Assembly: GCF_002304005.1 (NCBI RefSeq)
Contig: NZ_MRCQ01000008.1
Span: forward strand, 186,001 to 250,000
Reading direction: 5' to 3'
Origin: Flavobacterium sp. ACN6
GTDB taxonomy: Bacteria; Bacteroidota; Bacteroidia; Flavobacteriales; Flavobacteriaceae
DNA: 64,000 nucleotides
In this document: positions 12,605 through 40,932 of the stretch, one piece after another
Numbering within the stretch: position 1 is the first letter of the stretch
Layout of the letters: every line of letters begins with the position of its first letter
Notes under the pieces: generated by a model
Seen by the model: the letters and a program-made list of their open reading frames with translations, nothing else
What the model was told of the DNA's origin: nothing
The model's database searches: none
Program-made: the position numbers and the translations under genes

Positions 12605-12607
12605 TAC

Positions 12608-12640
12608 AGTCTGAAAGTCTAAAGTCATAAAGTCAAAAGT
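12608..12640 (+). repeat. Left arm of an AAAGTC-type inverted repeat enclosing the IVP ORF
   Basis: The sequence AGTCTGAAAGTCTAAAGTC and following units pair with the GACTTT units at about 13086-13121. By eye about 28 of 33 positions match when one arm is reverse-complemented. The arm ends 6 bases before the IVP start codon. Confidence 0.65.
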
Positions 12641-12645
12641 TGGGC

Positions 12646-13014
12646 ATGAGCAAATTTAGATCTTTTGAGGAAATAAATTCGTGGCAGAAATCCAGAATCT
12701 TCAATAAGAAAATATATTTAGTTACTGAAAATTCTAATTTCAAAAAAGACTTTGATTTCGTTAGACAAATAAGACGCGCATCACTTTCTATATCATCAAA
12801 TATAGCAGAAGGTTTTGAGAGAAATACAGATAAAGAGTTTGTTTATTTTTTATATGTGGCCAAAGCATCGGCAGGAGAAGTAAGATCTCAATTATATTTA
12901 GCGTTTGATTTAGAATATATTATAAAAGAAGAATTTGAAATGCTTTTAGAATCGATAACTGAAATATCGAAATTATTAAGCGGTTTCATTAAATATTTGA
13001 GTCAAAAGTCATAA
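12646..13014 (+). CDS. Four-helix-bundle protein (23S rRNA intervening-sequence protein family)
   Basis: About 122 residues from ATG 12646 (an upstream TTG at 12640 is less likely). Family marks are FEEINSWQKSR near the start, IRRASLSISSNIAEGFER in the middle, and the SAGEVRSQLYLA helix. Members were first found in intervening sequences of 23S rRNA and form a pentameric four-helix bundle of unknown function. Here the ORF sits between sufC and sufD and is enclosed by an inverted repeat; its last codons and stop are themselves part of repeat sequence (AGTCAAAAGTCATAA). This suggests it entered the operon as part of a repeat element rather than having a SUF role. Confidence 0.88.
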   Translation: MSKFRSFEEINSWQKSRIFNKKIYLVTENSNFKKDFDFVRQIRRASLSISSNIAEGFERNTDKEFVYFLYVAKASAGEVRSQLYLAFDLEYIIKEEFEMLLESITEISKLLSGFIKYLSQKS

Positions 13015-13121
13015 AGTCAAAAGTTGTAAAGTCTGTTTAGACTCAACTAAGTTTATGATTTTTTCACAAAAATAGTCGACAATCTAAAGTCTTTTGACTT
13101 TCGACTTTCGACTTTAAGACT
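12996..13121. repeat. AAAGTC-type repeat between the IVP ORF and sufD, including the right arm
   Basis: Units of the AAAGTCATAAAGTC type at 12996-13035 overlap the end of the IVP ORF. The complementary array with GACTTTCGACTTT lies at 13086-13121, 10 bases before sufD. The right array pairs with the arm at 12608-12640. Confidence 0.65.
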
Positions 13122-13131
13122 AACAAGAACA

Positions 13132-14448
13132 ATGGATTTAAAAGAAAAATTAGTATCGTCTTTTATGGCTTTTGAAGAGCGTGTCGATGTACATTCAGAT
13201 TTGCATGACATTCGCACAAATGCCTTAAAAAACTTCGAAAATAAAGGTTTCCCAACCAAAAAAGAAGAAGCTTGGAAATATACATCGTTAAACGCCATCT
13301 TAAAAAATGACTTTACGGTTTTTCCAAAAGAAGAAAATGCAATCGAATTTAATCAGGTAAAAAAATACTTTTTACACGAAATTGATACTTATAAATTAGT
13401 ATTTATTGATGGCGTTTTTAGTTCTCATTTGTCTTCTACTACACATGACGGAATCGATGTTTGTTTGATGTCTTCGGCATTGACCAAACCAAAATATAAA
13501 ATGGTTATTGATACCTACTTCAATCAAATTGCAAGTAAAGATGACAGCTTGACTTCATTAAATACTGCTTTTGCAAGTGAAGGAGCTTTTATCAATATTC
13601 CACAGAAGAAAGTTGCTGACAAACCAATTGAGATTATGTATTTCTCTACAGGAAATGAAGCTGCTTTAATGGTTCAGCCAAGAAATTTGGTTATTGTGGG
13701 CGAAAATTCACATGTTCAAATTATCGAGCGTCACCAAAGTTTGAATGAAAATCCGGTTTTAACCAATTCGGTTACTGAAATTTTTGCTCAAAAACGTGCG
13801 ATTGTCGATTATTACAAAATTCAAAATGATAATAGCGAAGCTAATTTAGTTGACAATACTTATGTTTCGCAGCAACAAGAAAGTCACGCTGCTGTACATA
13901 CTTTTTCATTTGGAGGAAATCTTACGCGTAACAACTTAAACTTTTATCACTTTGGTGAAAGATTAACAAGTACGTTAAACGGAATCACGATTCTAAGCGA
14001 TAAACAACACGTTGATCATTATACTTTGGTAAACCACGCAACGCCAAACTGCGAAAGTTTTCAGGATTATAAAGGAATTTTTTCTGATCGCTCAACAGGC
14101 GTTTTCAACGGAAAAGTTTTAGTAGAAAAAGAAGCTCAAAAAACAAATGCTTTCCAAAAAAGCAATAATATTTTATTGAGTGACAAAGCAACTATTAATG
14201 CAAAACCACAATTAGAGATTTTTGCAGATGACGTAAAATGTTCTCACGGTTGTACCGTTGGACAATTAGACGAAACTGCCATGTTCTACATGCAATCTCG
14301 TGGTATTCCTAAAAAAGAAGCTAAAGCATTATTGATGTACGCATTCTCAAATGCCGTTATCGAAAGCATTAAAATACCAGAATTAAAACAAAGAATTACT
14401 AAAATCATTGCCATGAAATTGGGTGTGAATTTAGGATTTGATTTGTAG
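13132..14448 (+). CDS. sufD: Fe-S cluster scaffold subunit SufD
   Basis: 438 residues, normal length. SufD marks are the N-terminal GFPTKKEEAWKYTSL motif, the central parallel beta-helix, and the C-terminal CSHGCTVGQLDETAMFY and RGIPKKEAKALL segments. It partners with SufB and SufC in the scaffold. It is separated from sufC by the IVP insertion, unlike the usual tight sufC-sufD spacing. A hairpin terminator follows. Confidence 0.97.
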   Translation: MDLKEKLVSSFMAFEERVDVHSDLHDIRTNALKNFENKGFPTKKEEAWKYTSLNAILKNDFTVFPKEENAIEFNQVKKYFLHEIDTYKLVFIDGVFSSHLSSTTHDGIDVCLMSSALTKPKYKMVIDTYFNQIASKDDSLTSLNTAFASEGAFINIPQKKVADKPIEIMYFSTGNEAALMVQPRNLVIVGENSHVQIIERHQSLNENPVLTNSVTEIFAQKRAIVDYYKIQNDNSEANLVDNTYVSQQQESHAAVHTFSFGGNLTRNNLNFYHFGERLTSTLNGITILSDKQHVDHYTLVNHATPNCESFQDYKGIFSDRSTGVFNGKVLVEKEAQKTNAFQKSNNILLSDKATINAKPQLEIFADDVKCSHGCTVGQLDETAMFYMQSRGIPKKEAKALLMYAFSNAVIESIKIPELKQRITKIIAMKLGVNLGFDL

Positions 14449-14464
14449 GCAGGTTTAACCTCAA

Positions 14465-14482
14465 TCCCGATAGCTATCGGGA
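14465..14482. repeat. 18-bp perfect palindrome TCCCGATAGCTATCGGGA
   Basis: A perfect 18-bp palindrome just after sufD. It has the same build as the palindrome inside the tRNA fragment at 43235-43252 and the longer imperfect one at 50808-50830. Confidence 0.8.
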
Positions 14483-14493
14483 GCAAAGAATTA

Positions 14494-14544
14494 CGCAAAG
14501 TTCGCAAAGTTTTAATATAAAGCTTTGCGAACTTTGCGCTTTTT
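14494..14544 (+). terminator. Terminator-like CGCAAAGTTCGCAAAG hairpin after sufD
   Basis: A perfect 16-bp stem (14494-14509 with 14523-14538) has a 13-nt loop and is followed by CTTTTT. The stem sequence recurs at 20850-20891, so it is also a dispersed repeat. Confidence 0.7.
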
Positions 14545-14568
14545 ACTTGGCGTCTTTGCGGTAAAATT

Positions 14569-15918
14569 TCATTTTTTTACAGAAGAAATGACATCTTTCA
14601 AAAACCCATTAAAATCAAAACTTTTATCACCTTCTCTAACTCCCATTCTCACGATAACCATATCCAAAGACGGAATAATTGCCACCATTTGACCTTGATA
14701 TCCACTGCAATAAAACATATCACGAGGCACATCAGGGAATTTTCCTCCGGCGTTAAGCCAGAACTGCGCGCCATATTTCCCTTCGGATGTATTTGTTGGA
14801 GTTGAAGTATATTTTATCCAGCTTTCGTCAAGAATTTGTTCGCCATTCCAATTTCCTTTTCTCAGATATAATAATCCAAATTTTGACCAATCTCTTGGCG
14901 TTGCCCATCCGTACGACGAACCTACAAAAGTTCCTGACATATCCTGTTCTACAATCATCGAGTTCATTCCGATTTTATCGATAATAGCGCTGTACCAAAA
15001 ATCAAGATATTCTTGCTGTGTTTTAAATTGTCTTCTTAAAATAAGAGACAATAAATTGGTTGTTCCAGAAGAATAATTCCAATGTGTGTTTGGTTTAAAT
15101 TGGGCCGGTTTATCCATTTGTACTTTTCCCATATCTTCGGCCTGAAAAAGCATTTTTGTGGCGTCGCAAATCGTGCTGTAATTTTCTTCCCATTCTAAAC
15201 CAGAATTCATATGAAGCAAATCATTTATCGTGATTATTTTACGCTCATCATTTTTCCATTCCGCAATTGGAGCTGGTTTATAAATATCAATTTTTCCTTG
15301 TTTCGCCAGAACGCCAAATGCCGAACTTGTGATACTTTTTGTCATCGACCAACCTAAAATCTTACTGTCTTTATTAAAACCTTTATCGTATTTTTCGGCT
15401 ATCAATTTGTCTTTGTATAAAACTACAACCGCCCGAGTACGTTTTGCTTTTCCATCGTTTTTATCAAAAGCATTTTCAACCGCATTCTTAAGTTTCGAAT
15501 AATCTACATTGGCAAATAAAGTATCTTTTGGTTCATTATTCCCGTAAGGAAAAGGAAGGTTATTTTCTAACTTTGTTCTCTTTGGAAGTAAATAAGGTTT
15601 TGACACATCAAAATCATCATTAATCAAAGTTGCTCCCAAACCTTCTCTATAAATCGCCTTTCTTTCCTTTAAACCATAAACTTCTGCAGTCGCAAATTTT
15701 CCAGCTTCGTCAATAGAGTTTGTAGCTAAATCTATCATTTTGATATCATTGTCTGTTTTCTGAATTAAGTCTAAAGGACGGTTATCAATAAAATGTCCAG
15801 AAGCAACACTTTTAGCCGAGAATCCAGAAATTAAATCAAGCTTGGGATAAGTTGTAAATCCGAAATATAAAAAAGCAAGAACCACTACTAGCAAAAGTAC
15901 TTTTAGAAATTTTTTCAT
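14569..15918 (-). CDS. Serine hydrolase of the class C beta-lactamase family
   Basis: About 449 residues from ATG 15918; the longer start at 15963 adds 15 residues before the hydrophobic segment MKKFLKVLLLVVVLAFLYFG and is less likely. The catalytic SxxK motif appears in WSMTKSITS. The YSSGTTN segment is the usual second motif region, and a C-terminal YGAQFWLNAGG block fits the beta-lactamase/D-aminopeptidase-like group. It is anchored or secreted by its N-terminal helix. Most Bacteroidota members act as esterases or peptidases; a resistance role cannot be inferred. It converges on sufD and diverges from sufS. Confidence 0.88.
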   Translation of the reverse strand: MKKFLKVLLLVVVLAFLYFGFTTYPKLDLISGFSAKSVASGHFIDNRPLDLIQKTDNDIKMIDLATNSIDEAGKFATAEVYGLKERKAIYREGLGATLINDDFDVSKPYLLPKRTKLENNLPFPYGNNEPKDTLFANVDYSKLKNAVENAFDKNDGKAKRTRAVVVLYKDKLIAEKYDKGFNKDSKILGWSMTKSITSSAFGVLAKQGKIDIYKPAPIAEWKNDERKIITINDLLHMNSGLEWEENYSTICDATKMLFQAEDMGKVQMDKPAQFKPNTHWNYSSGTTNLLSLILRRQFKTQQEYLDFWYSAIIDKIGMNSMIVEQDMSGTFVGSSYGWATPRDWSKFGLLYLRKGNWNGEQILDESWIKYTSTPTNTSEGKYGAQFWLNAGGKFPDVPRDMFYCSGYQGQMVAIIPSLDMVIVRMGVREGDKSFDFNGFLKDVISSVKK

Positions 15919-16104
15919 GATGATGTCAGTATTTTTAATGCAATATAAATAATTTATGTTCACGATTTTAGACTCAAATTATAAATCTGATTGGGATTAT
16001 TCAGAAAATCGAATTGATTTTTACGGAATCAGCATTTACACCTTGTAACAATGATGCCATCAAAGGAAATTATAGAATTGCTGTATAAACAAATTTAGTT
16101 TTAG

Positions 16105-31919: not shown

Positions 31920-33164
31920 TTAATTTCGGTTTTTTATAGATAGAATAATTCCCAAATGAATTTGAAAATCTTCTAAAAGTGAAGGTGCTTCAGGAATAAA
32001 ACCATTTGTTTTATATGACATTCCCATATTAAAATAAGCTGTTGGTTTCTTTTCATCTTTAGCTTTTGAAAATCTCATAGCAAATTCAGATTTTAAACCA
32101 ACTCCAAATTCTCTTTCTTTTGTTCTAAATTCCAAATTTTTCGGTTGTTGCCAAAAATCTAGAGAAGAATTCAATATATACCTTTCATCATAAAAAGTAT
32201 AATTATGTAAGGCAAGTCCTCCTGCAAAAAAAGTATGGCTTTTGTTGAAATATTGGCGGAAATAAGGATTGAATTTGAATTTATCCTTAATTTGTAAATA
32301 TGCATTTTGTTCTGTAAAATATCCAAATGGAGCTAAAGAATAATTAATCGAAAAGTTTCCAATTACATCTTTTGACAATCTATAATTTCCTAGCTTCCAA
32401 ATATTAGGATTTAAAAAATTAATGAATGAAATATATCCGATTCTCTTCGCGTACGATTTTTCTTCAAAAGTTAAATCCTTTCTTTCAGTATAGCGGTAAA
32501 ACTCCATTGCAGGCCTATGTAAATGACGTATCATTCCATAGATATCATTTCCAACAACATCTAGATCAAGTTCTTTACAATCTGCTTCTTTAATTCTTGA
32601 AGTTGAATTATAAAAAGAAGTAAAATAATACAATTGAGTCCCTAATTTTCTCATTAAATAATCTGGATAAAGAACTTTGTAACTTTCTTCACTAAAATTA
32701 AAATACATATCAGATTTTCTTAAATAAGCATAATCCGACTCCAACCCTGCCGTATGCAATCTAATATAATTTGGTAAGGAATTATCTCTCAGGTTAATTA
32801 ACGTTTCATTACTAACTCCTGTCACTTTAGCAACGAAATTTTTGTCTAAAAAGGGTTTGTTAACACTTCCTATTCCAAGTTCTGAAAGTACTGACTGATG
32901 CCCAGCTTCATGGGTAATCGCTTGTCCGATTAAAGAAGTAAATATCAGCAAACTGGTTGAATATATTTTCTCATCTTTTTTTGTTAACGATGAATTGGTA
33001 ATCTCGTCACCAATATATCGAATAGAATTTAACATAAGATCATCACTTTGAGACATTGTGAAAAAATAGTCCTTTCCATCATAAAGATTATAATTATAAT
33101 ATTTGGATTGAGCCTTATTTACAGTCGCTATAAAAAAAATAATGATACTAAAAGTATATTTCAT
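31920..33164 (-). CDS. Envelope protein with an HEAGH (HExxH) motif next to the peptide exporter
   Basis: 414 residues with a signal peptide (ends VNKAQ). A hydrophobic segment at about 69-84 runs into HEAGH at 85-89, the zinc-ligand motif of metalloproteases. The C-terminal half (FFAGGLALHNYTFYDERYIL, AYFNMGMSYKTNGF) is beta-rich and resembles an outer-membrane barrel. I do not recognise a named family. It is the last minus-strand gene of the peptide locus, 102 bp after the last peptide gene. It could be a protease, an immunity protein or unrelated; no third metal ligand can be assigned by eye. Confidence 0.7.
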   Translation of the reverse strand: MKYTFSIIIFFIATVNKAQSKYYNYNLYDGKDYFFTMSQSDDLMLNSIRYIGDEITNSSLTKKDEKIYSTSLLIFTSLIGQAITHEAGHQSVLSELGIGSVNKPFLDKNFVAKVTGVSNETLINLRDNSLPNYIRLHTAGLESDYAYLRKSDMYFNFSEESYKVLYPDYLMRKLGTQLYYFTSFYNSTSRIKEADCKELDLDVVGNDIYGMIRHLHRPAMEFYRYTERKDLTFEEKSYAKRIGYISFINFLNPNIWKLGNYRLSKDVIGNFSINYSLAPFGYFTEQNAYLQIKDKFKFNPYFRQYFNKSHTFFAGGLALHNYTFYDERYILNSSLDFWQQPKNLEFRTKEREFGVGLKSEFAMRFSKAKDEKKPTAYFNMGMSYKTNGFIPEAPSLLEDFQIHLGIILSIKNRN

Positions 33165-33265
33165 GATGATTCTTAAATAAAAAATTTAAAACTATCCCAC
33201 ATTAATAAAATCTATCTATAAATTAAAGCTGGATAGTTTTTTTTTAAATTTGAACATTCAAAAGA

Positions 33266-33400
33266 TTAATCTAAGGCATCTAAAAGCATCCTTGTTCCTA
33301 AGGCTATTAAAAAGAATAATCCCCACATAAATCCTCCTGAAACTTCCTTTTGTTGCTTTTTTGACATTTCCACAACACCTATTTTATCAAAGTCTATCAT
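33266..33400 (-). CDS. Short GG-leader peptide (putative bacteriocin precursor, peptide 4)
   Basis: 44 codons. The leader MIDFDKIGVVEMSKKQQKEV is followed by SGG, a double-glycine cleavage site, then a 21-residue hydrophobic core starting FMWGLFFLIALGT and ending in an acidic tail (LLDALD). The leader has the usual hydrophobic spacing before GG but differs from the other three peptides. It begins 10 bases after the neighbouring peptide gene ends. C39 exporters cut such leaders on export. Peptide function (bacteriocin, signal) is inference. Confidence 0.75.
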   Translation of the reverse strand: MIDFDKIGVVEMSKKQQKEVSGGFMWGLFFLIALGTRMLLDALD

Positions 33401-33410
33401 AACACTTTTT

Positions 33411-33539
33411 TTAAGTTGTTAGTAAATACGCAATTGCTCCTACAAGAATTCCCGCGATAAGTTCTAATAAAAAACCCGCTTCAATTTCTTCCATTTCATG
33501 AGCTTTTAACTCAACCAAATTCAATTCTTCTAAATTCAT
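33411..33539 (-). CDS. Short GG-type leader peptide (putative bacteriocin precursor, peptide 3)
   Basis: 42 codons. The leader (MNLEELNLVELKAHEMEEIE) matches the NLxELxxxExxEIE pattern of the other peptide genes, but the cleavage site reads AG instead of GG. The core is 20 residues, nearly all hydrophobic with small residues (FLLELIAGILVGAIAYLLTT), like a single membrane-inserting helix with a GxxxG-like pattern. It lies under a copy of the conserved promoter element and forms a pair with peptide 4, which recalls two-peptide bacteriocins. Confidence 0.75.
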   Translation of the reverse strand: MNLEELNLVELKAHEMEEIEAGFLLELIAGILVGAIAYLLTT

Positions 33540-33611
33540 AACTTTAAAATTTAAATGGTTAATTAATAAATTCCAACAAAAAATCATTTCTCGAGAAGTA
33601 TTTTGTTATAG

Positions 33612-33652
33612 CAAACTTATTAGACTTCCGTCCAATAAACTTGGACGGAAGT
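33612..33652 (-). promoter_or_regulatory. Conserved inverted repeat plus -7 element, copy A
   Basis: On the minus strand a perfect 12-bp inverted repeat (ACTTCCGTCCAA with its complement, loop 5 nt; 33624-33635 with 33641-33652) is followed by TAAGTTTG (33612-33619), a TAnnTTTG -7 element. About 73 bp further is the peptide 3 start. Copies B and C lie at 38762-38802 and 40618-40658. Read in one frame the copy encodes FRPSLLDGSLISLL and a stop, close to the HTH protein tail. Confidence 0.7.
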
Positions 33653-33697
33653 TTTAAGCTGAATTTTATTTTAATAATCTCTTATTCAAGAACTACT

Positions 33698-35848
33698 TCA
33701 AATCAAATTCTGCTTATTCCATAAATTATAATACTCCGATTTTTGATCCAACAAATCAAAATGATTACCTGACTCCACAATAGAACCATTTTTCATTACC
33801 AATATAGTATCAGCGTTGGCTATTGTGCTTAAGCGATGTGCAATGACAATTATTGTTTTTCCTTGTAATTTAAAATTATCAATTACATCTTTCACAATTT
33901 TTTCTGAGTTTGTATCTAATGACGCCGTTGCTTCATCCATTAATAAAATTTCAGGATTTTTATACAACGCCCTAGCAATTGCTATTCTTTGCTTTTGCCC
34001 TCCAGAAAGCATTGCTCCATTTTCACCAATTTGTGTTTCAAAACCATTTGGCAGTTTTTCTACAAAATCTGTAATTCCTAATTGTTTGGACAAATCCAAA
34101 ACTCTTTGGATATTGGGAAATGAATCTCCTAAAGCAATATTTTCTATAATGTTTCCAGAAAACAAATTAAGCTGTTGGGGAATAACACCAACAATTTTCC
34201 TTAAACTCTTATAATGGACATGTCGAAGATCAAAATCTCCAATATTAATTTTACCTTCTTTTATTGGGTAAAGATTTTGCAAAAGCGAAATTAAAGTTGT
34301 TTTTCCGCTACCGCTTTCACCAACAATAGCTGTGGTTTGGTTTTTCTTGAATATGGCATTAAAATTTTTAAAAACTTCCACTCGAGACCCATACCGAAAA
34401 GAAACATTTTCAAATTTTATATCTCCCATATTTTCTTTTGTCAATTCAATCTTGTTTTCTGTTTCCTCTCTTTCTAAATCCATGATTTCAAAAAGCCTGT
34501 CTGCTGCAATTAAAGCATTTTGCGCTGTTTTATTCATATTAATCAAGGATGCAACAGGCGAAGTAAAATAACCGATCAAGGCATAAAAGGAAAACAATTC
34601 TCCAGGAGTAATTGATCTGTCGATTACATAACCTGAACCAATCCACATTAAGATTACAGTAAATACAGATGCCAAAAACTGTGTCGATGTTGTGGCAAAA
34701 ATGCCATTTAGACCAGATTTATATGTTATGAATAATAGTTTTACAAATTTGTTTTCGGTTTTTAAATTTGAAAACTCTTCAATCCCAAATTCTTTAACAG
34801 TTCTAACATGCGTAATGCTTTCAACTAATTGTGTTTGTAATTCTGCTGCATTCTCCATTATGTTTCTTTCAACCTTTTTGTTGAATTTATTTAGCAGAAA
34901 ATAAACAAAAACATAAAACGGAATAACCAGAATAATGACCAAAGCCAATTTCCAATAATAAGTAAACATTAATGAAAATGAAAAGACAACAATAAAAACA
35001 TTTACAATCATTTCGATTGCGGTTTCATTTATAAAAGATCGAATCTTTACAGCGTCATTTATTCTTGATGTGATTTCTCCAATCTGCATGGTATCAAAAA
35101 ATCGTTGAGGCAGATGAAGCAAATGTTTATAATAACCTAAGATTAATTTAGCATCAATTAACTGGCCTGTTTTCATCACAAAAACACTCTTCTTCGCCCC
35201 AATATACACTTGAAGAAGAATAATTGCGATCATAGAAACACTTAATAAATTAAGCAGATTTCTATTCCCATCGACCAAAACATAATCTGTTATTTTTTGG
35301 ATATAAATAGACATTGCCAATCCTAAAACTGTAAATAAAACAGCTCCAACTAAAGCCTGAAGTAAAATAGTTTTGTGAGGTTTAATTAAATTCCAAAACC
35401 GTTTTATAGGTGACGTTTTTTCATTTAATGTTTTAAAATCATCATTTGGTGCAAAAAGAATGAGAACACCTGACCATGTTTTTTGAAACTCCTCAATAGC
35501 ATACTTTTCCATCTTACCAAAGCCTGGATCCATAACTGTAATCGTTGATTTTTCAACTTTGTAAATAACGACATAATGAAGCAGTTGTTCTTTTGTAATA
35601 ATATGTGCAATAGCAGGAAGAGGAATTTTATCTAAAGAATCTAAACCTCCTTTCACCCCTTTAGCAGTAAATCCCATTTTGTCAGCAGCTTCAATTATTC
35701 CAAGAACATTCGTTCCTCGCTTGTCTGTGTTGGCATACTGACGTATTCTCGCTATAGGCAGATTAACTTTAAAATGGTTTCCAATAGACGCCAGACAAGC
35801 AACACCACAATCTTTAATATCATGTTGTTTTATTTTAATTGATGCCAT
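33698..35848 (-). CDS. Peptidase-containing ABC exporter (C39 family, PCAT)
   Basis: 716 residues. The N-terminal C39 peptidase (about 1-140) has catalytic C14 (KDCGVACL), H91 (LLHYVV) and D107 (MDPGFG). A six-helix membrane domain spans about 155-450. The ATPase has Walker A GESGSGKTT (about 508), signature LSGGQKQR and Walker B ILLMDEATASLD. Such transporters cut double-glycine leaders and export the peptide. It directly follows the HlyD-like gene (7 bp) and is surrounded by short GG-leader genes, which are its likely substrates. Confidence 0.96.
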   Translation of the reverse strand: MASIKIKQHDIKDCGVACLASIGNHFKVNLPIARIRQYANTDKRGTNVLGIIEAADKMGFTAKGVKGGLDSLDKIPLPAIAHIITKEQLLHYVVIYKVEKSTITVMDPGFGKMEKYAIEEFQKTWSGVLILFAPNDDFKTLNEKTSPIKRFWNLIKPHKTILLQALVGAVLFTVLGLAMSIYIQKITDYVLVDGNRNLLNLLSVSMIAIILLQVYIGAKKSVFVMKTGQLIDAKLILGYYKHLLHLPQRFFDTMQIGEITSRINDAVKIRSFINETAIEMIVNVFIVVFSFSLMFTYYWKLALVIILVIPFYVFVYFLLNKFNKKVERNIMENAAELQTQLVESITHVRTVKEFGIEEFSNLKTENKFVKLLFITYKSGLNGIFATTSTQFLASVFTVILMWIGSGYVIDRSITPGELFSFYALIGYFTSPVASLINMNKTAQNALIAADRLFEIMDLEREETENKIELTKENMGDIKFENVSFRYGSRVEVFKNFNAIFKKNQTTAIVGESGSGKTTLISLLQNLYPIKEGKINIGDFDLRHVHYKSLRKIVGVIPQQLNLFSGNIIENIALGDSFPNIQRVLDLSKQLGITDFVEKLPNGFETQIGENGAMLSGGQKQRIAIARALYKNPEILLMDEATASLDTNSEKIVKDVIDNFKLQGKTIIVIAHRLSTIANADTILVMKNGSIVESGNHFDLLDQKSEYYNLWNKQNLI

Positions 35849-35855
35849 TTATTCT

Positions 35856-36992
35856 CTAATTTGATATTTGTTTTGGGTTTAGCCAATCATCAATTTTATC
35901 AAATAACAATTCGAATAAACTTCTGCGGGTAATTATATATCTTGTGGTTAAGGTCATGCCTTTTGAAACTTTTGTTTTATAACCCGATTTTAATTGTAAG
36001 GTCTGTGAATCTAAAGAACATCGTACTTTAAAAAAAGCCTGTTCGCCCTGCATGGTTATATTGTGGTCAATATCAATTACTCTTCCTTCTAATAAACCCC
36101 ACTGATTGTAATTGAAAGCGTCTAACTGAAATTTTACTTTTTGGTTTTTCTTTATCAGACCAATATCGTTTGGCGAAACATTACTTTCTATAATAAGATG
36201 GTCTGCCGAAGAAATGGTTGCAAGAGACTGCGAAGCATTTATAAATGAACCTTTTTGAATACCCGAATAGTTTTCTATTGTACCTGAAATGGGTGCTAAG
36301 ACCACATAATTATTTGATTCCACGTTTATTTTAGCAACGGTACCATTTAAGTCTTTTAAACGATCATCTAAATCTCTCCTTTGATTTTCCCAATTTGATT
36401 TTTGCTGGCTTACAAAAGTTTGCAATTCGTGCCTTGCCAAACGTAGTTCATAATCAATTTTTTCGAAATCTGCCTTGGCAATAATATCTTTATCGTACAA
36501 AATCTTATTTCGGTCATAATTTATTTGAGCTTGTGCTATTTTACTTTGCAGTTCATTTCTTCCAGATTGAAATCTCAAAAAATCTTCTCTTGCTGTACTC
36601 GTCCTCAAATGCGATGTTTTATTTTGTAAAAGATTTGAAATATCATTCATTAATAAAGAAACAGAGTTCGACAAAGTATCATGTGTTCTTTTATCGCTTT
36701 CCAGATTTTCTTTGGAAATTTTTAAAAGTGTATCTCCTTTTTTTACAAACGCATTATTTTTTAGAACTATCTCATTTATTCTTCCACTTACAATTGTTGA
36801 AACTGGGACATTATCTGTTTTACTACGAATTATACCACGGCTCTGACTGCTTATATCTAATTTAATTACTGGCAATAATCCCAAAATATTGATAACAGCA
36901 AGAAGAATTATCAAATAAATTGAAAAGCTTTTTGTTTTGTTTTTTGCAATAAGATTTTCGAGAGTGTTTATAGGGTCTGAGCTAAACTGCAT
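35856..36992 (-). CDS. HlyD-type membrane fusion protein
   Basis: 378 residues. One N-terminal transmembrane helix (about 22-43) is followed by a split lipoyl domain (VSTIVSGRINEIVLKNNAFVKKGDTLL and VLAPISGTIENYSGIQKGSFI), a long coiled-coil hairpin (about 100-225), and a beta-barrel domain (LIESNVSPNDIGLIKKNQKV). It links the inner-membrane C39 exporter to the outer membrane. The gene is 7 bp upstream of the exporter in transcription. No TolC-like gene is in the window. Confidence 0.92.
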   Translation of the reverse strand: MQFSSDPINTLENLIAKNKTKSFSIYLIILLAVINILGLLPVIKLDISSQSRGIIRSKTDNVPVSTIVSGRINEIVLKNNAFVKKGDTLLKISKENLESDKRTHDTLSNSVSLLMNDISNLLQNKTSHLRTSTAREDFLRFQSGRNELQSKIAQAQINYDRNKILYDKDIIAKADFEKIDYELRLARHELQTFVSQQKSNWENQRRDLDDRLKDLNGTVAKINVESNNYVVLAPISGTIENYSGIQKGSFINASQSLATISSADHLIIESNVSPNDIGLIKKNQKVKFQLDAFNYNQWGLLEGRVIDIDHNITMQGEQAFFKVRCSLDSQTLQLKSGYKTKVSKGMTLTTRYIITRRSLFELLFDKIDDWLNPKQISN

Positions 36993-37022
36993 ATCAATTA
37001 ATTTGAGGTGCTTGTCAATAAA

Positions 37023-37268
37023 TTAAATATGGTATTTTCCAGAATTGTAGTTATCAATTATTGCCTTTGCTTTTTCATAATCTTCTTCGGCTACTTTTAG
37101 TTTTATAGCATTTATATCTCCAACTAAAACTCACCATGGATTAAAAACAGACATTAGTGATGCATCTTCAAAAACTTGAATTGAAAAACTTTCCAATAAC
37201 ATTTTCAAAACAATTGCTTCTTCTTTACTTCCTTGGTGAATAGATATTCTTCTTTCTTGCTCGATCAC
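37023..37268 (-). pseudogene. DUF2007-like gene with an in-frame stop
   Basis: From GTG 37268 the frame reads VIEQERRISIHQG, SIQVFEDASLMSVFNPW, then TGA at 37131-37133, then VLVGDINAIKLKVAEEDYEKA and a final stop at 37023. The two halves together match the usual about 75-80-residue DUF2007 layout (variable N-terminus, central NPW/APW, C-terminal V..EDYEKA). An ATG ten bases upstream is out of frame and followed by a stop, another sign of decay. DUF2007 proteins are small and poorly understood. Confidence 0.6.
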
Positions 37269-37279
37269 TTTATTTCATT

Positions 37280-37851
37280 TTAATCTATGATCATAAAACC
37301 AACTTTGCTGTTATGATCTAATAATTTATGATTTAAACCTACTTTGAATATTAAATAAGTATAGATAAAATCTCCAACCGCACCTAAAGTCATGGAAAAG
37401 CCTATAAATAAAAAAGTCAAATTATTATAAAGAAATCCATAGATTGAAGGCAATAATCCCAGAATAAAAATGGCGCAAGTGCAACAACTAACATCTTCTT
37501 GGATTCTAACGGTTCTATACAATTTGCAAAAGGCATTACATATTTCTTAATGAAACCAAATTTTACCGATTGCCATCCTTTTTTTGAAAAAAGCGCCATA
37601 AAAATCCCATGTATAATTTCATGCACAAGTATACCTACGCAAATAATTAAATTAGGAACCAATAAAATTAAAAGTACATTTAGTTTTTTATTATCAAAAA
37701 ACTGTAATGTTTGCTTTACTACTTTCATATTCGCTGCAAAAATCTCATTCCATGTTAAATAAAAAACAAATAGGAAAAGCAAAACAATCGGAACACTTAT
37801 TAGCATTCCCAAAATTTGAACTTTTTTAGAATCAATAGAGATTTCTTTCAT
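37280..37851 (-). pseudogene. DUF3267-type HExxH membrane protein, frameshifted
   Basis: The 5' part (37851 downwards) has two hydrophobic helices and HEIIHG at residues 77-82, then AHC-like FANCIEPLESKKM, as in DUF3267 putative zincins (M50-like). After APFLF the frame is lost; the overlapping frame ending at 37280 continues with ILGLLPSIYGFLYNN and LGAVGDFIYTYLIFKVG, the expected C-terminal helices. Adding one base to the A5/T5 run at 37466-37470 joins them into one about 190-residue protein. Either a real frameshift or a homopolymer error. Confidence 0.75.
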
Positions 37852-38053
37852 TTTCTATTATTTTACAATTTCTAATTTCTAACAACTCCTGTGAAATTTT
37901 AATTTTTTCAATTGATACTAATTCTGTTTCAACAGTCTGATTGATTTGATTAAAATTTATTTCATTTTTATTATATGCCAAAATTTCATTTTTATCAAAT
38001 GAAACACTCATTAATTGATTTTTCATAGGCTGTATTAATAAAATTAATATCAC
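37832..38053 (-). CDS. Small hypothetical protein, possibly a remnant
   Basis: Open frame of 73 codons from GTG 38053 (ATG 38026 gives 64). Its end overlaps the start of the DUF3267-like gene by 20 bp, which suggests translational coupling. Upstream in the same frame, from ATG 38092, MKIIALIVK runs into TGA at 38063-38065 and then RLFVILILLIQ, so a signal-peptide-like start seems to be cut by a stop. No known domain. The region from 38093 to 38265 holds no gene I can support. Confidence 0.35.
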   Translation of the reverse strand: MILILLIQPMKNQLMSVSFDKNEILAYNKNEINFNQINQTVETELVSIEKIKISQELLEIRNCKIIENERNLY

Positions 38054-38265
38054 AAATAGTCTTCATTTTACAATTAAAGCTATTATCTTCATTGAATAGT
38101 GGTATAAATAAGATTCAAAAATATTATCTAAATTCATACTTTGGACTATAAAAACAATTATAAACTTTTTTTTGCAAAGGAAACCGAGCACACCAGCTCT
38201 TCATATCTACAGACACCCTTAATTCGTTTGATTCTATTATTCATTCAATACTTAAATTAAAAGAT

Positions 38266-38442
38266 CTACTTCACTTTGTTAAAATATTTTTTAACATTTG
38301 GAATAATCAAATCAAAAATGATTAAGCCTGCGATCAGGATAAATAGAATTATTTTCTTTTGCTCAAAATTGACATGAAAAAAAAATACAGCTACGACATA
38401 TAATAGGGTAATCACATAAAGTATAATTCTAATTTGTTTCAT
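38266..38442 (-). CDS. 58-residue two-helix membrane protein (candidate immunity protein)
   Basis: A frame of 58 codons with two hydrophobic helices (about 5-23 and 31-47) joined by HVNFEQKK, ending in a basic tail (KKYFNKVK). It lies 82 bp downstream of peptide 2, separated by a hairpin. Small basic two-helix proteins beside peptide genes often give self-immunity; here that is inference from position and build only. There is no named family. Confidence 0.6.
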   Translation of the reverse strand: MKQIRIILYVITLLYVVAVFFFHVNFEQKKIILFILIAGLIIFDLIIPNVKKYFNKVK

Positions 38443-38481
38443 TATATAAATTTAGATTAGTTGACTTACTGAACAAGATTA

Positions 38482-38515
38482 TATCCTTGTCACAATTAGA
38501 GTTGTGGCAAGGATA
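38482..38515. terminator. Hairpin between peptide 2 and the small membrane protein
   Basis: A 14-bp inverted repeat with one mismatch (38482-38495 with 38502-38515), loop 6 nt. There is no strong T run on the minus strand, so it may be an attenuator or mRNA stabiliser after the peptide gene. Confidence 0.5.
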
Positions 38516-38524
38516 ACTTTATTA

Positions 38525-38695
38525 TTATTTATTACATTGTTCACAATTCGCATCATGATAAGCTACTGCCATGAGACCTAAATATGCCAATCCTCTTAAA
38601 ACAGGAACAATCCAACCCCCTTCTACTTCTTTAATTTCTTGAGCATTAAGCTCTGCCAAATTTAAATCGTCTAAATTCACTAATTCTAATTGCAT
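38525..38695 (-). CDS. Short GG-leader peptide (putative bacteriocin precursor, peptide 2)
   Basis: 56 codons. The leader (DLNLAELNAQEIKEVEGG) matches that of peptide 1 closely and ends in a true GG. The 29-residue core begins WIVPVLRGLAYLG and ends with a CxxC-containing polar tail (DANCEQCNK), unlike the other peptides. It lies under promoter copy B with the same spacing as peptide 1, and the stretch just before the ATG is also conserved (CCTTTAATATTTAAAATT). Confidence 0.8.
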   Translation of the reverse strand: MQLELVNLDDLNLAELNAQEIKEVEGGWIVPVLRGLAYLGLMAVAYHDANCEQCNK

Positions 38696-38761
38696 AATTT
38701 TAAATATTAAAGGTTAATAAAATTCAACAAAATCATTTTCTCGAGAACGTTTTCGTTGTAG

Positions 38762-38802
38762 CAAACTTATCAGAGTTCCGTCTAATAAAATTGGACGGAA
38801 GT
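38762..38802 (-). promoter_or_regulatory. Conserved inverted repeat plus -7 element, copy B
   Basis: Same layout as copy A: inverted repeat at 38774-38802 (12-bp arms, two mismatches) then TAAGTTTG at 38762-38769 on the minus strand, 66 bp before peptide 2. The frame through it reads FRPILLDGTLISLLQ, identical to the HTH protein tail up to its stop. Confidence 0.7.
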
Positions 38803-38825
38803 ATAAATCATCTTTTTTTTGAAAA

Positions 38826-39458
38826 TTATTTTAAGAACAGCTCCTCTTCGATCATAGAATATTGAAATTTTCCAAACTCCTGTATTTTAGAATTTTTTAT
38901 TAAAAATATACTATCACAATCTTTATAAAGAGTTTCCAGAATATGAGACGAAATAAAAACAATACTTTTTTTTGATAATTGTCTGATATAATTCATCAGT
39001 ACATAATTAGACTCTAAATCAAGTCCATTAAAAGGTTCGTCAAAAATATAGATGCTATACTCTTTCTGAAAAACAGCATTCATGTAAGCTTTCTTTTTCA
39101 TTCCTGTCGAAAAAGTTTTGATGAGTTTATCCTGAGGAACATCAAACATTTGAAAATCACTATTCTTAATATTTAATAATTCCTGGTAAAAAAAGGCAAA
39201 TTCTTTTGCCGTCAATTCATCATAAATTACGGGTTCAGTAGGACACCATGCTATTTTTCCATGAAAAGAATTTTCTGCTTCATGAGCAATAGAACCAATA
39301 AAAGAAGTTAAACCCATTATGCACCTAAATATTGTAGTTTTTCCTTCTCCATTTTTTCCTACAACTCCATAAATACCGTTTTCGGATATAGAAATCGAAA
39401 TGTTTTCTAAAACTGTTTTATTTCTATAAGATTTATTTTTTATGTCAATTTGAAACAT
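38826..39458 (-). CDS. ABC transporter ATP-binding protein
   Basis: 210 residues. Walker A GKNGEGKTT, a degenerate signature FSTGMKKKA, Walker B IYIFDEPFNGLD and an H-loop in FISSHILE. It overlaps the end of the membrane-protein gene by 14 bp, so the two are coupled. Pairs of this kind in peptide loci often export or confer self-resistance; a general export role is equally possible. Confidence 0.9.
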   Translation of the reverse strand: MFQIDIKNKSYRNKTVLENISISISENGIYGVVGKNGEGKTTIFRCIMGLTSFIGSIAHEAENSFHGKIAWCPTEPVIYDELTAKEFAFFYQELLNIKNSDFQMFDVPQDKLIKTFSTGMKKKAYMNAVFQKEYSIYIFDEPFNGLDLESNYVLMNYIRQLSKKSIVFISSHILETLYKDCDSIFLIKNSKIQEFGKFQYSMIEEELFLK

Positions 39459-40350
39459 TCTGAATCGCTTTAATAGTTTTAACTGATTTTAGATACAAAA
39501 ATGGAATAATAACAACAGATATTCCCAACGGAAGCATAACCAAAAAAACGGCAAGCATAATTTGATGTAAAAATTGATTGTTGAAATAGGAATATTTGAA
39601 TATGATATTGAGTATTGGAATAGCAAAAATTAAAGGTATAAAACAGAGAAATTCCCATTTTTGAAATACCATCAGTGCAATAATTAAGGGTACAGTTGTT
39701 ATTAGGGAATTTGTGATTGCCGTTTTGAATTGCTTATTAAGATAACCCTTCCCTGAATAATAACTCATCTTTATGTTTTCGTAAGCTTCTCTTTGAAAAG
39801 AAGGTAATGCACTCAAAAATGAAGCAACAAAAAATGAAGCTATAATAAGATTTTCGTTATTGTATAAATCTCCAACAACCACAAGAAAAATAGTTAGAGG
39901 AAGAAACAAAATTAATTTGTTTTTGCGCCAACAAATATTCCAAAAAGGATCAAACAGTTTAAACGGATATTTGATTGTTTTTCCGTAAAATTCCGGAACA
40001 GCAATAATGTAAGCCGCTATTAAAAAAAGATATATTATAATAAATAAATATTCTTTATTCATAAAAAACAAAACCAAATAAGGAAAACTATAAACAAAAT
40101 ATTCTCCATATAATACTAACTTCCATTTCTTATTTAGTTTTAATAGTTCAATATCTTTCCTGTTAACATGATAAAAAAAAATATCTAAGGAAAAGAGAAG
40201 TGAATAATTTCTTAAGACATTAAATTTTTTATTCAAACAGAAAAAAAATAATAAATAACCGCAAAGAAATAATATCAAAGTTAATTTGTCCATGGGAGGA
40301 AGAAATTTTCTTAGACGAATTAACACCAAAGTTTGAATTAGTTGTATCAT
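39445..40350 (-). CDS. Membrane permease partner of the ABC ATPase
   Basis: 301 residues with about eight hydrophobic helices and few charged loops, no known motif. It resembles ABC-2-type permeases in size and topology. It lies between peptide 1 (63 bp upstream) and its ATPase (overlapping by 14 bp), forming an ABC transporter inside the peptide locus. Self-immunity is a reasonable inference. Confidence 0.7.
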   Translation of the reverse strand: MIQLIQTLVLIRLRKFLPPMDKLTLILFLCGYLLFFFCLNKKFNVLRNYSLLFSLDIFFYHVNRKDIELLKLNKKWKLVLYGEYFVYSFPYLVLFFMNKEYLFIIIYLFLIAAYIIAVPEFYGKTIKYPFKLFDPFWNICWRKNKLILFLPLTIFLVVVGDLYNNENLIIASFFVASFLSALPSFQREAYENIKMSYYSGKGYLNKQFKTAITNSLITTVPLIIALMVFQKWEFLCFIPLIFAIPILNIIFKYSYFNNQFLHQIMLAVFLVMLPLGISVVIIPFLYLKSVKTIKAIQNVSN

Positions 40351-40413
40351 ATTTTATTATAAAAGGAGCGAGTTACTTATATAGTAAATTCGCTCCTTAA
40401 AGTTTTTAATAAA

Positions 40414-40551
40414 TTAATACGCATTATGCGTTCCCCATAATAAAGAAACTGCAATTATTAATGGAATAATTCCACCCTCAATTTCCTGTGTTTCCTGAAC
40501 ATTAAGCTCTACCAAATTTAAATCTTCTAATTTAATTAATTCTAATTCCAT
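40414..40551 (-). CDS. Short GG-leader peptide (putative bacteriocin precursor, peptide 1)
   Basis: 45 codons. The leader (LEDLNLVELNVQETQEIEGG) ends in double glycine. The core is only 18 residues (IIPLIIAVSLLWGTHNAY), strongly hydrophobic. The gene lies 60 bp after the HTH gene, under promoter copy C. Leader and upstream sequence are near-identical to those of peptide 2, so they are duplicates with different cores. Confidence 0.8.
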   Translation of the reverse strand: MELELIKLEDLNLVELNVQETQEIEGGIIPLIIAVSLLWGTHNAY

Positions 40552-40611
40552 AATTTTAAATATTAAAGGTTAATAAAATTCAACAAAATCATTTTCTGGA
40601 GAACGTTTTCG

Positions 40612-40932
40612 TTATAGCAAACTTATCAGAGTTCCGTCTAATAAAATTGGACGGAAGTGAGAACCTCCAAAAATTTCTTTAGATTCATCATCTTTAATAG
40701 TTTTTAAAGAGAAATTTAATATTAATTCAAATGAAGTTTCATAATAAAAGGTCTCCCTCTTTTTACAATATTTTACTGGCGCATCGAGTTCTTTTATAAG
40801 ATCTAGCTCGTTATAAAACTGGCTTCGGCTCAAACATAACCTTTTGGCAAATGTTAAAGGAGAGCCTGTTTTTTCTCCGCAAATTAACTTATGCATTTTT
40901 TTGATTCTTTCAATTTGTCTAATAAAATTCAT
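40612..40932 (-). CDS. Small helix-turn-helix protein, likely regulator of the peptide locus
   Basis: 106 residues. The segment TFAKRLCLSRSQFYNELDLIKEL is a helix-turn-helix of the kind in small Bacteroidota regulators that sit at the head of peptide clusters. A basic middle (KYCKKRETFYYE) follows. The C-terminal 16 residues (HFRPILLDGTLISLL) are encoded by the same DNA as the conserved promoter element, and reappear as untranslated remnants at copies A and B. It is the first minus-strand gene of the locus. It may bind the inverted repeat and regulate itself; this is inference. Confidence 0.65.
   Translation of the reverse strand: MNFIRQIERIKKMHKLICGEKTGSPLTFAKRLCLSRSQFYNELDLIKELDAPVKYCKKRETFYYETSFELILNFSLKTIKDDESKEIFGGSHFRPILLDGTLISLL
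40618..40658 (-). promoter_or_regulatory. Conserved inverted repeat plus -7 element, copy C
   Basis: Inverted repeat 40630-40658, then TAAGTTTG at 40618-40625 on the minus strand, 66 bp before peptide 1. It lies inside the 3' end of the HTH gene. Confidence 0.7.

Follow-up and report, generated by a model that had tools for sequence, protein, structure and literature searches.

The locus described here occupies positions 31920 to 40932 of the window, a 64-kb stretch of Flavobacterium sp. ACN6 DNA (contig NZ_MRCQ01000008.1) to whose positions all coordinates refer; it lies wholly on the minus strand and is read from 40932 to 31920. On balance, we consider it to be an exporter-coupled array of bacteriocin-like peptides, the winged-helix regulator of which would mimic a substrate of the exporter and control the peptide cassettes. 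The genes follow one another in the order of a helix-turn-helix (HTH) regulator, peptide precursor P1, an ATP-binding cassette (ABC) pair, P2, a short hydrophobic protein, an interrupted DUF3267 gene, an HlyD-type adaptor, a C39-peptidase ABC exporter (PCAT, peptidase-containing ABC transporter), P3, P4 and a protein with an HEAGH motif. The anatomy of the locus, the structure of its cassettes, the geometry of its operators, the leader signature of the regulator and the association of that signature with C39 are direct observations. An earlier note on this DNA had described a peptide secretion locus; its observation is confirmed by our analysis and its interpretation is partly supported. It had not seen that a 106-aa open reading frame (ORF) within its range encodes a DNA-binding protein with a double-glycine (GG) tail, nor that each cassette has the same promoter element.

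The regulator (106 aa; 40612..40932) comprises a winged helix at approximately residues 1–64 and then the leader-like tail. It is a real gene, as the ratio of non-synonymous to synonymous change (pN/pS) was 0.17 over codons 1–64 of 13 Flavobacterium sequences; codons 1–90 were under protein-level selection (0.15–0.17), with a value of 0.15 for codons 81–90. The window protein gave no Pfam match at E-values up to 1 and no WYL domain, and HTH_11 was matched by 10 of the 13 relatives at E-values up to 0.1, the window protein itself being unmatched. BrxR chains aligned to the regulator over 64–65 columns at 2.4–2.6 Å (E-values 0.02–0.05), with no match reaching 0.001, and a search of solved structures by sequence with the domain profile returned weak matches only (best E-value 0.0067, of LysR type), many of them antibody chains. 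An AlphaFold model built with 13 close sequences had a mean predicted local distance difference test score (pLDDT) of 57.5 and was usable for the winged helix only. The protein is like the WYL regulators (BrxR and kin; HTH_11) in its winged helix, but unlike them in having a leader-like GG tail in place of the WYL sensor domain. Searches for the regulator detected it in 23 of 149 family genomes, in at least 27 of 395 of the order and in at least 42 of 395 of the class, and a domain-only search of the phylum gave at least 79 of 395 genomes, with many matches in open frames of WYL-protein length; the order, class and phylum searches scored 12–14 candidates per genome, and their counts are lower bounds.

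The tail of the window regulator, SLKTIKDDESKEIFGG, closes with DDESKEIFGG. Its residues 76–90 are spaced like a double-glycine leader of the C39 type, with hydrophobic residues at 76, 79 and 87, a glutamate residue at 83 and glycine residues at 89 and 90, and homologous tails end in EVTEIFGG, EMTKILGG, MREVSGG, FNEIKGG or DLTGG. According to two published studies, the consensus of C39 leaders is L(−12), E(−8), L(−7), −4 and GG, and C39 domains read these positions (PMC6959990, PMC6363468). When 47 regulator tails were compared with 105 candidate peptide leaders of the same loci, the profiles correlated in register over positions −16 to −5 (r = 0.84), the tail profile taking in eight closely related Flavobacterium rows and having −4 and GG fixed by rule, and the other 11 shifts gave at most 0.34. 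The strongly hydrophobic fractions of tails and leaders were 0.81 and 0.84 at −15, 0.87 and 0.89 at −12, and 0.51 and 0.74 at −7, and an acidic residue was found at −8 in 0.72 and 0.71 respectively. The GG pair stands at differing distances from the wing in several subfamilies. As a sequence signature, the regulator carries the recognition signal of the export system.

The GG tail was associated with C39 genes in the neighbourhood. The sample consisted of 101 regions (the window plus 40, 40 and 20), from which 98 regulator rows were kept and nine partial domains dropped; 24 of the 98 rows lay at contig ends and were set aside as unknown. Regulators were taken as near when C39 was within 10 kb, and as far when at least 9 kb on each side could be inspected and C39 was absent. 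A tail satisfying our GG rule was present in 32 of 43 regulators near C39 and in 9 of 31 far from it (11 near and 22 far had none; p = 1.4e-4); letter-shuffled tails passed the rule in 11%. Tails were also longer near C39 (median 40 compared with 17 far; p = 1.5e-6), and regulators without GG mostly ended soon after the winged helix, with a median tail of 12.5 far from C39 compared with 41 for GG regulators near it. The search profiles A1 and A2 were made mostly from GG members, so that GG members were easier to find; a third profile, A3, was restricted to the domain in order to reduce this bias, its rows likewise coming from the earlier matches. The domain-only search revealed GG or Ala-Gly (AG) tails beside C39 in seven of the eight loci with a complete domain and C39 in family f104, which belongs to another class of the phylum (L187, L189, L191–L193, L195 and L196; the exception was L194). 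Left out of the sample were 11 weaker matches from the order search, weak matches from the class search (G627, G788, one of G811 and four of G902) and most domain-only matches of the phylum beyond 14 new genomes, chiefly open frames of ~200–430 aa, the length of WYL proteins.

The second line of evidence is the promoter element. It reads TTCCGTCCAA-N5-TTRGACGGAA, with TAnnTTTG exactly 6 nt on, which we take to be the Bacteroidota-type −7 box, and TTCTC(C/G)AGAA, a second short palindrome, at +28. Palindrome 1 (25 bp), TTCCGTCCAATTTTATTAGACGGAA (40632..40656), lies within the last codons of the regulator gene and is followed by the P1 box TAAGTTTG (40618..40625) and by TTCTCCAGAA (40594..40603), an imperfect version of the second short palindrome. 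Palindrome 2 (38776..38800) is non-coding and lies upstream of P2, with its −7 box at 38762..38769 and the second short palindrome TTCTCGAGAA at 38738..38747. Palindrome 3, TTCCGTCCAAGTTTATTGGACGGAA (33626..33650), is also non-coding and precedes P3/P4, with the −7 box at 33612..33619 and TTCTCGAGAA at 33588..33597. Across the 44 contigs (5.1 Mb) of the genome, the 22-bp core of the palindrome occurred exactly three times, always in the locus and once per cassette; a single further site matched with three mismatches, and a control with the pattern reversed yielded one match when up to three mismatches were allowed. No −33 TTG was seen at the usual distance. This would fit a regulator that acts as an activator, though it may equally be a repressor.

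With a fixed pattern on the coding strand, 26 palindrome copies were detected in the window and 14 relatives, a variant copy of L179 being missed by the pattern and lying outside the 26. TAnnTTTG stood at +6 in 25 of the copies, 23 led into a GG peptide and 21 had the second palindrome. An operator copy at 12191 of L175 has no −7 box by pattern and no GG peptide downstream; it is perhaps a decayed cassette. All 15 Flavobacterium loci with a regulator gene (two of them frameshifted) contained the palindrome within one mismatch, compared with one of the 14 same-clade exporter loci without regulator (L209; L208 was set aside), the other 13 having it at five or more mismatches or not at all. In a shuffle control (n = 150), the best match had four mismatches in 2, five in 17 and six in 75, with no match in 56, and the 13 regulator-less loci stood at this shuffled-sequence level.

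Palindromes recurred beside regulator genes of other genera. Among 40 GG regulators from outside Flavobacterium, four had GTCCA-N-TGGAC palindromes near the stop codon of their gene (0.0008 expected per 270-nt window), compared with none of 50 regulators without GG; the four, from three genomes, are L076, L144 and L157 (these two in one genome) and L165. TGCAA-N5-TTGCA was detected at 10 of 98 regulators, five with GG and five without it by rule (0.0042 expected per window); its spacer was always 5 nt though 3–8 were allowed, and four of the sites had an exact TAnnTTTG after them and three an approximate one. The regulators of L159, L162, L167 and L169, which have no GG tail, have TGCAA-N5-TTGCA at or past their 3′ end. 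The presence of this site at GG-less regulators as well indicates that an operator beside the regulator gene is independent of the GG tail. We read the palindromes as putative binding sites of the regulator family, and binding of the window regulator is suggested by their position, their co-occurrence with the regulator and their recurrence across genera.

Several results weigh against this interpretation of regulator and operator. A general palindrome test on 32 GG regulators near C39 gave a mean score of 7.3 compared with 5.0, but only 8 of the 32 exceeded their own background maximum, which is weak, and a clear signal was obtained only for the specific motifs. L209 has a one-mismatch palindrome (6933) with no regulator in the fetched stretch and no −7 box. 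Position −7 of the window tail is Ser rather than Leu (P1 has Thr). Nine regulators have a GG-like tail and no C39 in the fetched region; exporter fragments are present in L095, L097 and L134 of these, and L188 is a chance match. Eleven regulators near C39 failed the GG rule, two of them nearly passing (L104 with SG and L141 with TGG). Corrected for the tree, the GG–C39 association (74 rows, 65 columns) was underpowered, with five supported pairs of which ~2 agreed and 0.1 disagreed. Co-adaptation of the tail to the leaders of its own locus was tried and rejected: over 37 loci (10 were dropped for lack of a usable leader), the match was no better than with shuffled partners (p = 0.12–0.34; by clade p = 0.47). 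The regulator gene carries a frameshift in L185 and L186 (around 10190), with operator and peptide cassettes kept. Finally, in the exporter clade (24 loci in 395 Flavobacteriales genomes), the regulator was present in 10 loci and absent from the fetched stretch in 13, so the exporter does without it at many loci. The remaining locus, L208, stops 15 bases past the adaptor gene at the end of contig 20 of G285 and was counted as unresolved; the G285 regulator (L098) lies at the end of contig 10, and the two are probably one locus split by the assembly.

A rival reading is that the locus is a conventional PCAT bacteriocin array under one-component control, and that the GG tail of its regulator is vestigial or purely structural and plays no part in export. 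The 13 of 24 exporter loci without regulator and the missing match to own-locus leaders agree with such an arrangement, as do the pLDDT under 50 for residues 81–106 and the GG kept in L068 and L078 with no C39 in the fetched region. We nevertheless consider it less likely; against it stand the register-exact leader profile over 47 tails, the association of the tail with C39, the selection on codons 81–90 and the GG pairs at different wing distances in several subfamilies.

As the earlier note had claimed, four short ORFs of 45, 56, 42 and 44 aa have GG (three) or AG (one) sites and cores of 18, 29, 20 and 21 residues: P1 (40414..40551; core IIPLIIAVSLLWGTHNAY), P2 (38525..38695), the AG precursor P3 (33411..33539) and its partner P4 (33266..33400). 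The leader pattern that the note saw in three of the four is that of P1–P3, with the P4 leader differing. A strict leader pattern, applied to ORFs of 30–80 aa on both strands of the whole window, matched exactly these three and no other ORF, and therefore their leaders are not due to chance; P4 fails at −7, where it has Gln, though GG is present. P3 can also be read as a 58-aa ORF with an earlier start, the extra 5′ part of which is probably untranslated leader RNA. All of the cores are hydrophobic, with two cysteine residues in P2 and none in P1, P3 or P4. P1 and P2 resemble the leader part of TIGR03949 (lactobin A/cerein 7B family), but both score under its curated cut-off of 21.5 bits (21.4 and 16.0 respectively), and TIGR03949 gave no row for P3 or P4 at E-values up to 1 in the NCBIfam search. 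Calling the system undescribed was thus too strong for the kind of peptide, P1 lying so close to the cut-off; the newest part, the leader-tagged regulator and its operator, had escaped the note.

The C39 exporter (716 aa; 33698..35848; PF03412, PF00664 and PF00005) and the HlyD-type periplasmic adaptor (378 aa; 35856..36992; Pfam and NCBIfam) stand beside the peptides as described before. The exporter scored 519.4 bits against TIGR01193 (cut-off 523.85). Its C39 domain carries DCGVAC, LHY and MDPG, which we take to hold the catalytic Cys, His and Asp, and looks active by sequence. A scan of named genomes for the regulator gave 14 further loci, all from Flavobacterium (one a metagenome assembly) and with HTH identities of 67–93%, in line with the proposal of a PCAT-type export locus of this genus. 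In each, the regulator gene is followed by one or two GG peptides whose leaders are alike but whose cores differ, and the exporter is present in 14 of the 15 loci, the fetched stretch of L182 stopping before it. The earlier note had asked whether neighbouring genomes keep the exporter but never the short ORFs; we found short GG ORFs in the window, in the 14 relatives and in all but one of the 14 exporter loci without regulator (the exception is L221; L208 was excluded for its contig break).

The P3/P4 pair and the HEAGH protein occur together in the window and in L177, and in L076 and L080, which belong to one genome, HEAGH homologs adjoin other GG peptides. Modules of this kind reappear in varying combinations across the relatives, and therefore the locus is a cassette array served by one exporter; for the cassette-array and operator parts of our interpretation we have high confidence. 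Each cassette comprises the same operator, −7 box and leader RNA, a similar leader, a different core and often its own accessory or putative self-protection gene. A candidate for the last of these is the ABC pair, made up of a membrane protein matching no family (ABCm; 39445..40350) and an ATPase (ABCa; 38826..39458) whose best NCBIfam match, the lantibiotic protection ABC TIGR03740, was well below the cut-off (94.5 compared with 309.75 bits). Peptides ending in GTxxAY or STNAY precede the pair in six of the seven loci having it, and it is possibly a self-protection system for the P1 type of peptide. In L220 (G290 contig 1, of the window's genus), 18 GG peptide ORFs stand in tandem over 12607–16022, next to a C39 exporter 55% identical to that of the window; the first 12 of them hardly differ from one another.

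The peptides of the array are most likely bacteriocin-like, with a predicted antibacterial activity, and the earlier note was right to predict bacteriocin-like or signalling peptides in something more than a simple bacteriocin cluster. It is less probable that they are signals or self-acting peptides under the same logic of export and control. The tandem array of L220, beside a related exporter, and the candidate status of any immunity gene speak for signals, but the fast and strong turnover of cores between species and the tie of the ABC pair to one core type fit toxins better.

Among 13 intact regulator genes, synonymous divergence (pS) was 0.64 in the DNA-binding domain, 0.35 in codons 81–90, 0.21 after the GG and 0.13 in the palindrome codons, and pN/pS after the GG was 0.44 in Flavobacterium. 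The low synonymous change after the GG argues that this end is constrained as DNA, and the conserved regulator end FRPILLDGTLISLL is largely promoter DNA read as protein. This bears on whether the regulator might itself be a precursor, with the residues after the GG cleaved off for export as a signal peptide and the DNA-binding domain serving as a long leader. The GG pair is a C39 cut site, the 32 GG regulators near C39 have 11–43 residues after it, often with aromatic ones, and PMC6363468 lists leaders of the Nif11 and nitrile-hydratase types as known PCAT substrates. The idea lost weight in Flavobacterium because the constraint is on the DNA, the sequence after the GG being shaped by operator and promoter, and the GG is followed by only 0–5 residues in three regulators whose region has no C39 (L068, L085 and L101) and in two at contig ends (L071 and L072); we regard it as improbable. 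Equally doubtful is an RNA hairpin (terminator or attenuator) in place of an operator: the 25-bp inverted repeat does lie close to a stop codon, and the L209 copy has no −7 box, but no T-run follows the palindrome in the window, the box is at exactly +6 in 25 of 26 copies, the copies before P2 and P3 are non-coding and the palindrome goes with the regulator.

In the exporter-coupled array that we favour, the single C39 exporter with its adaptor would cleave the precursors after GG and export the cores, and the single winged-helix regulator would bind the palindrome at every cassette promoter. The C-terminus of the regulator, a leader mimic ending in GG, would be docked or cut by the C39 domain like a precursor. 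A free exporter would in this way remove (or mature) the regulator and the cassettes would fire, and accumulating precursors would compete for the C39 groove and reverse the effect. Peptide expression would thus follow export capacity, and membrane-active precursors would not accumulate inside the cell. Binding to DNA, docking or cleavage of the tail and the direction of control (a repressor removed or an activator released) are what we infer here, and we put the chances of a contact between exporter and regulator at about even. A little more tentatively, a widespread class of Bacteroidota regulators may be substrates of adjoining C39 exporters and report free capacity to promoters, as an ABC-exporter counterpart of FlgM/ExsE.

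To our knowledge, how the production of membrane-active precursors is matched to export is little understood outside pheromone-controlled Gram-positive loci, and a regulator wearing the substrate tag of the exporter would be a simple way to do so. The operator would also be a DNA handle for finding and switching on silent peptide cassettes in Flavobacterium, and the common promoter-leader module suggests how cores get swapped. The locus resembles class II bacteriocin/PCAT loci such as colicin V and pneumococcal blp in its C39 exporter, its several GG peptides with swapped cores, its accessory genes and its one promoter type in common. The blp locus is controlled by a pheromone and a two-component system, whereas the present locus has one winged-helix protein with a leader-like tail and an operator of its own. 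Like ExsE and FlgM, the latter of which is exported, the regulator bears the signal of the very export system that it is predicted to regulate, but those proteins belong to type III or flagellar systems. In PMC3372540, ExsE is presented as a secreted regulator that couples transcription to secretion. A literature search covering few subscription papers found no export-coupled regulator for a C39 ABC exporter, and no DNA-binding protein with a C39 leader tail was found in that literature, including passages of PMC8939145, PMC10986499, PMC6671954, PMC10352776, PMC6393860 and PMC3372540. One Bacteroidales cluster is noted to contain an HTH gene in PMC10352776, and PMC10986499 treats it as an open question whether the exporter HetC exports peptides derived from PatS, HetN or HetP. 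Bacteroidetocins, as described in the main text of PMC6671954, where the word 'regulator' is absent, have 42-residue cores with four cysteine residues, a thiol oxidoreductase and a five-transmembrane-helix protein; the present cores differ from them in being hydrophobic, only 18–29 residues long and with two cysteine residues in P2 alone.

The remaining genes had been announced as an extra ABC pair, a two-helix membrane protein and two HExxH proteins. All of them are there, but one of the HExxH genes, which encodes a putative zincin membrane peptidase (DUF3267; 37280..37851; PF11667, 51.8 bits), is frameshifted in the window; four relatives (L173, L174, L175 and L178) have an uninterrupted frame of 190 aa. 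The small hydrophobic protein (58 aa; 38266..38442) probably has two membrane helices, judged by eye, and the HEAGH-motif protein (414 aa; 31920..33164) belongs to no Pfam family and has a signal-like start, also by eye. C39 occurs at five places in the genome, and the other two full-length exporters are 32–34% identical to that of the locus. Further C39 genes of the same genome (G000) lie at 75604–80229 of contig 8, at 176904 of contig 6 and at 62689 of contig 17.

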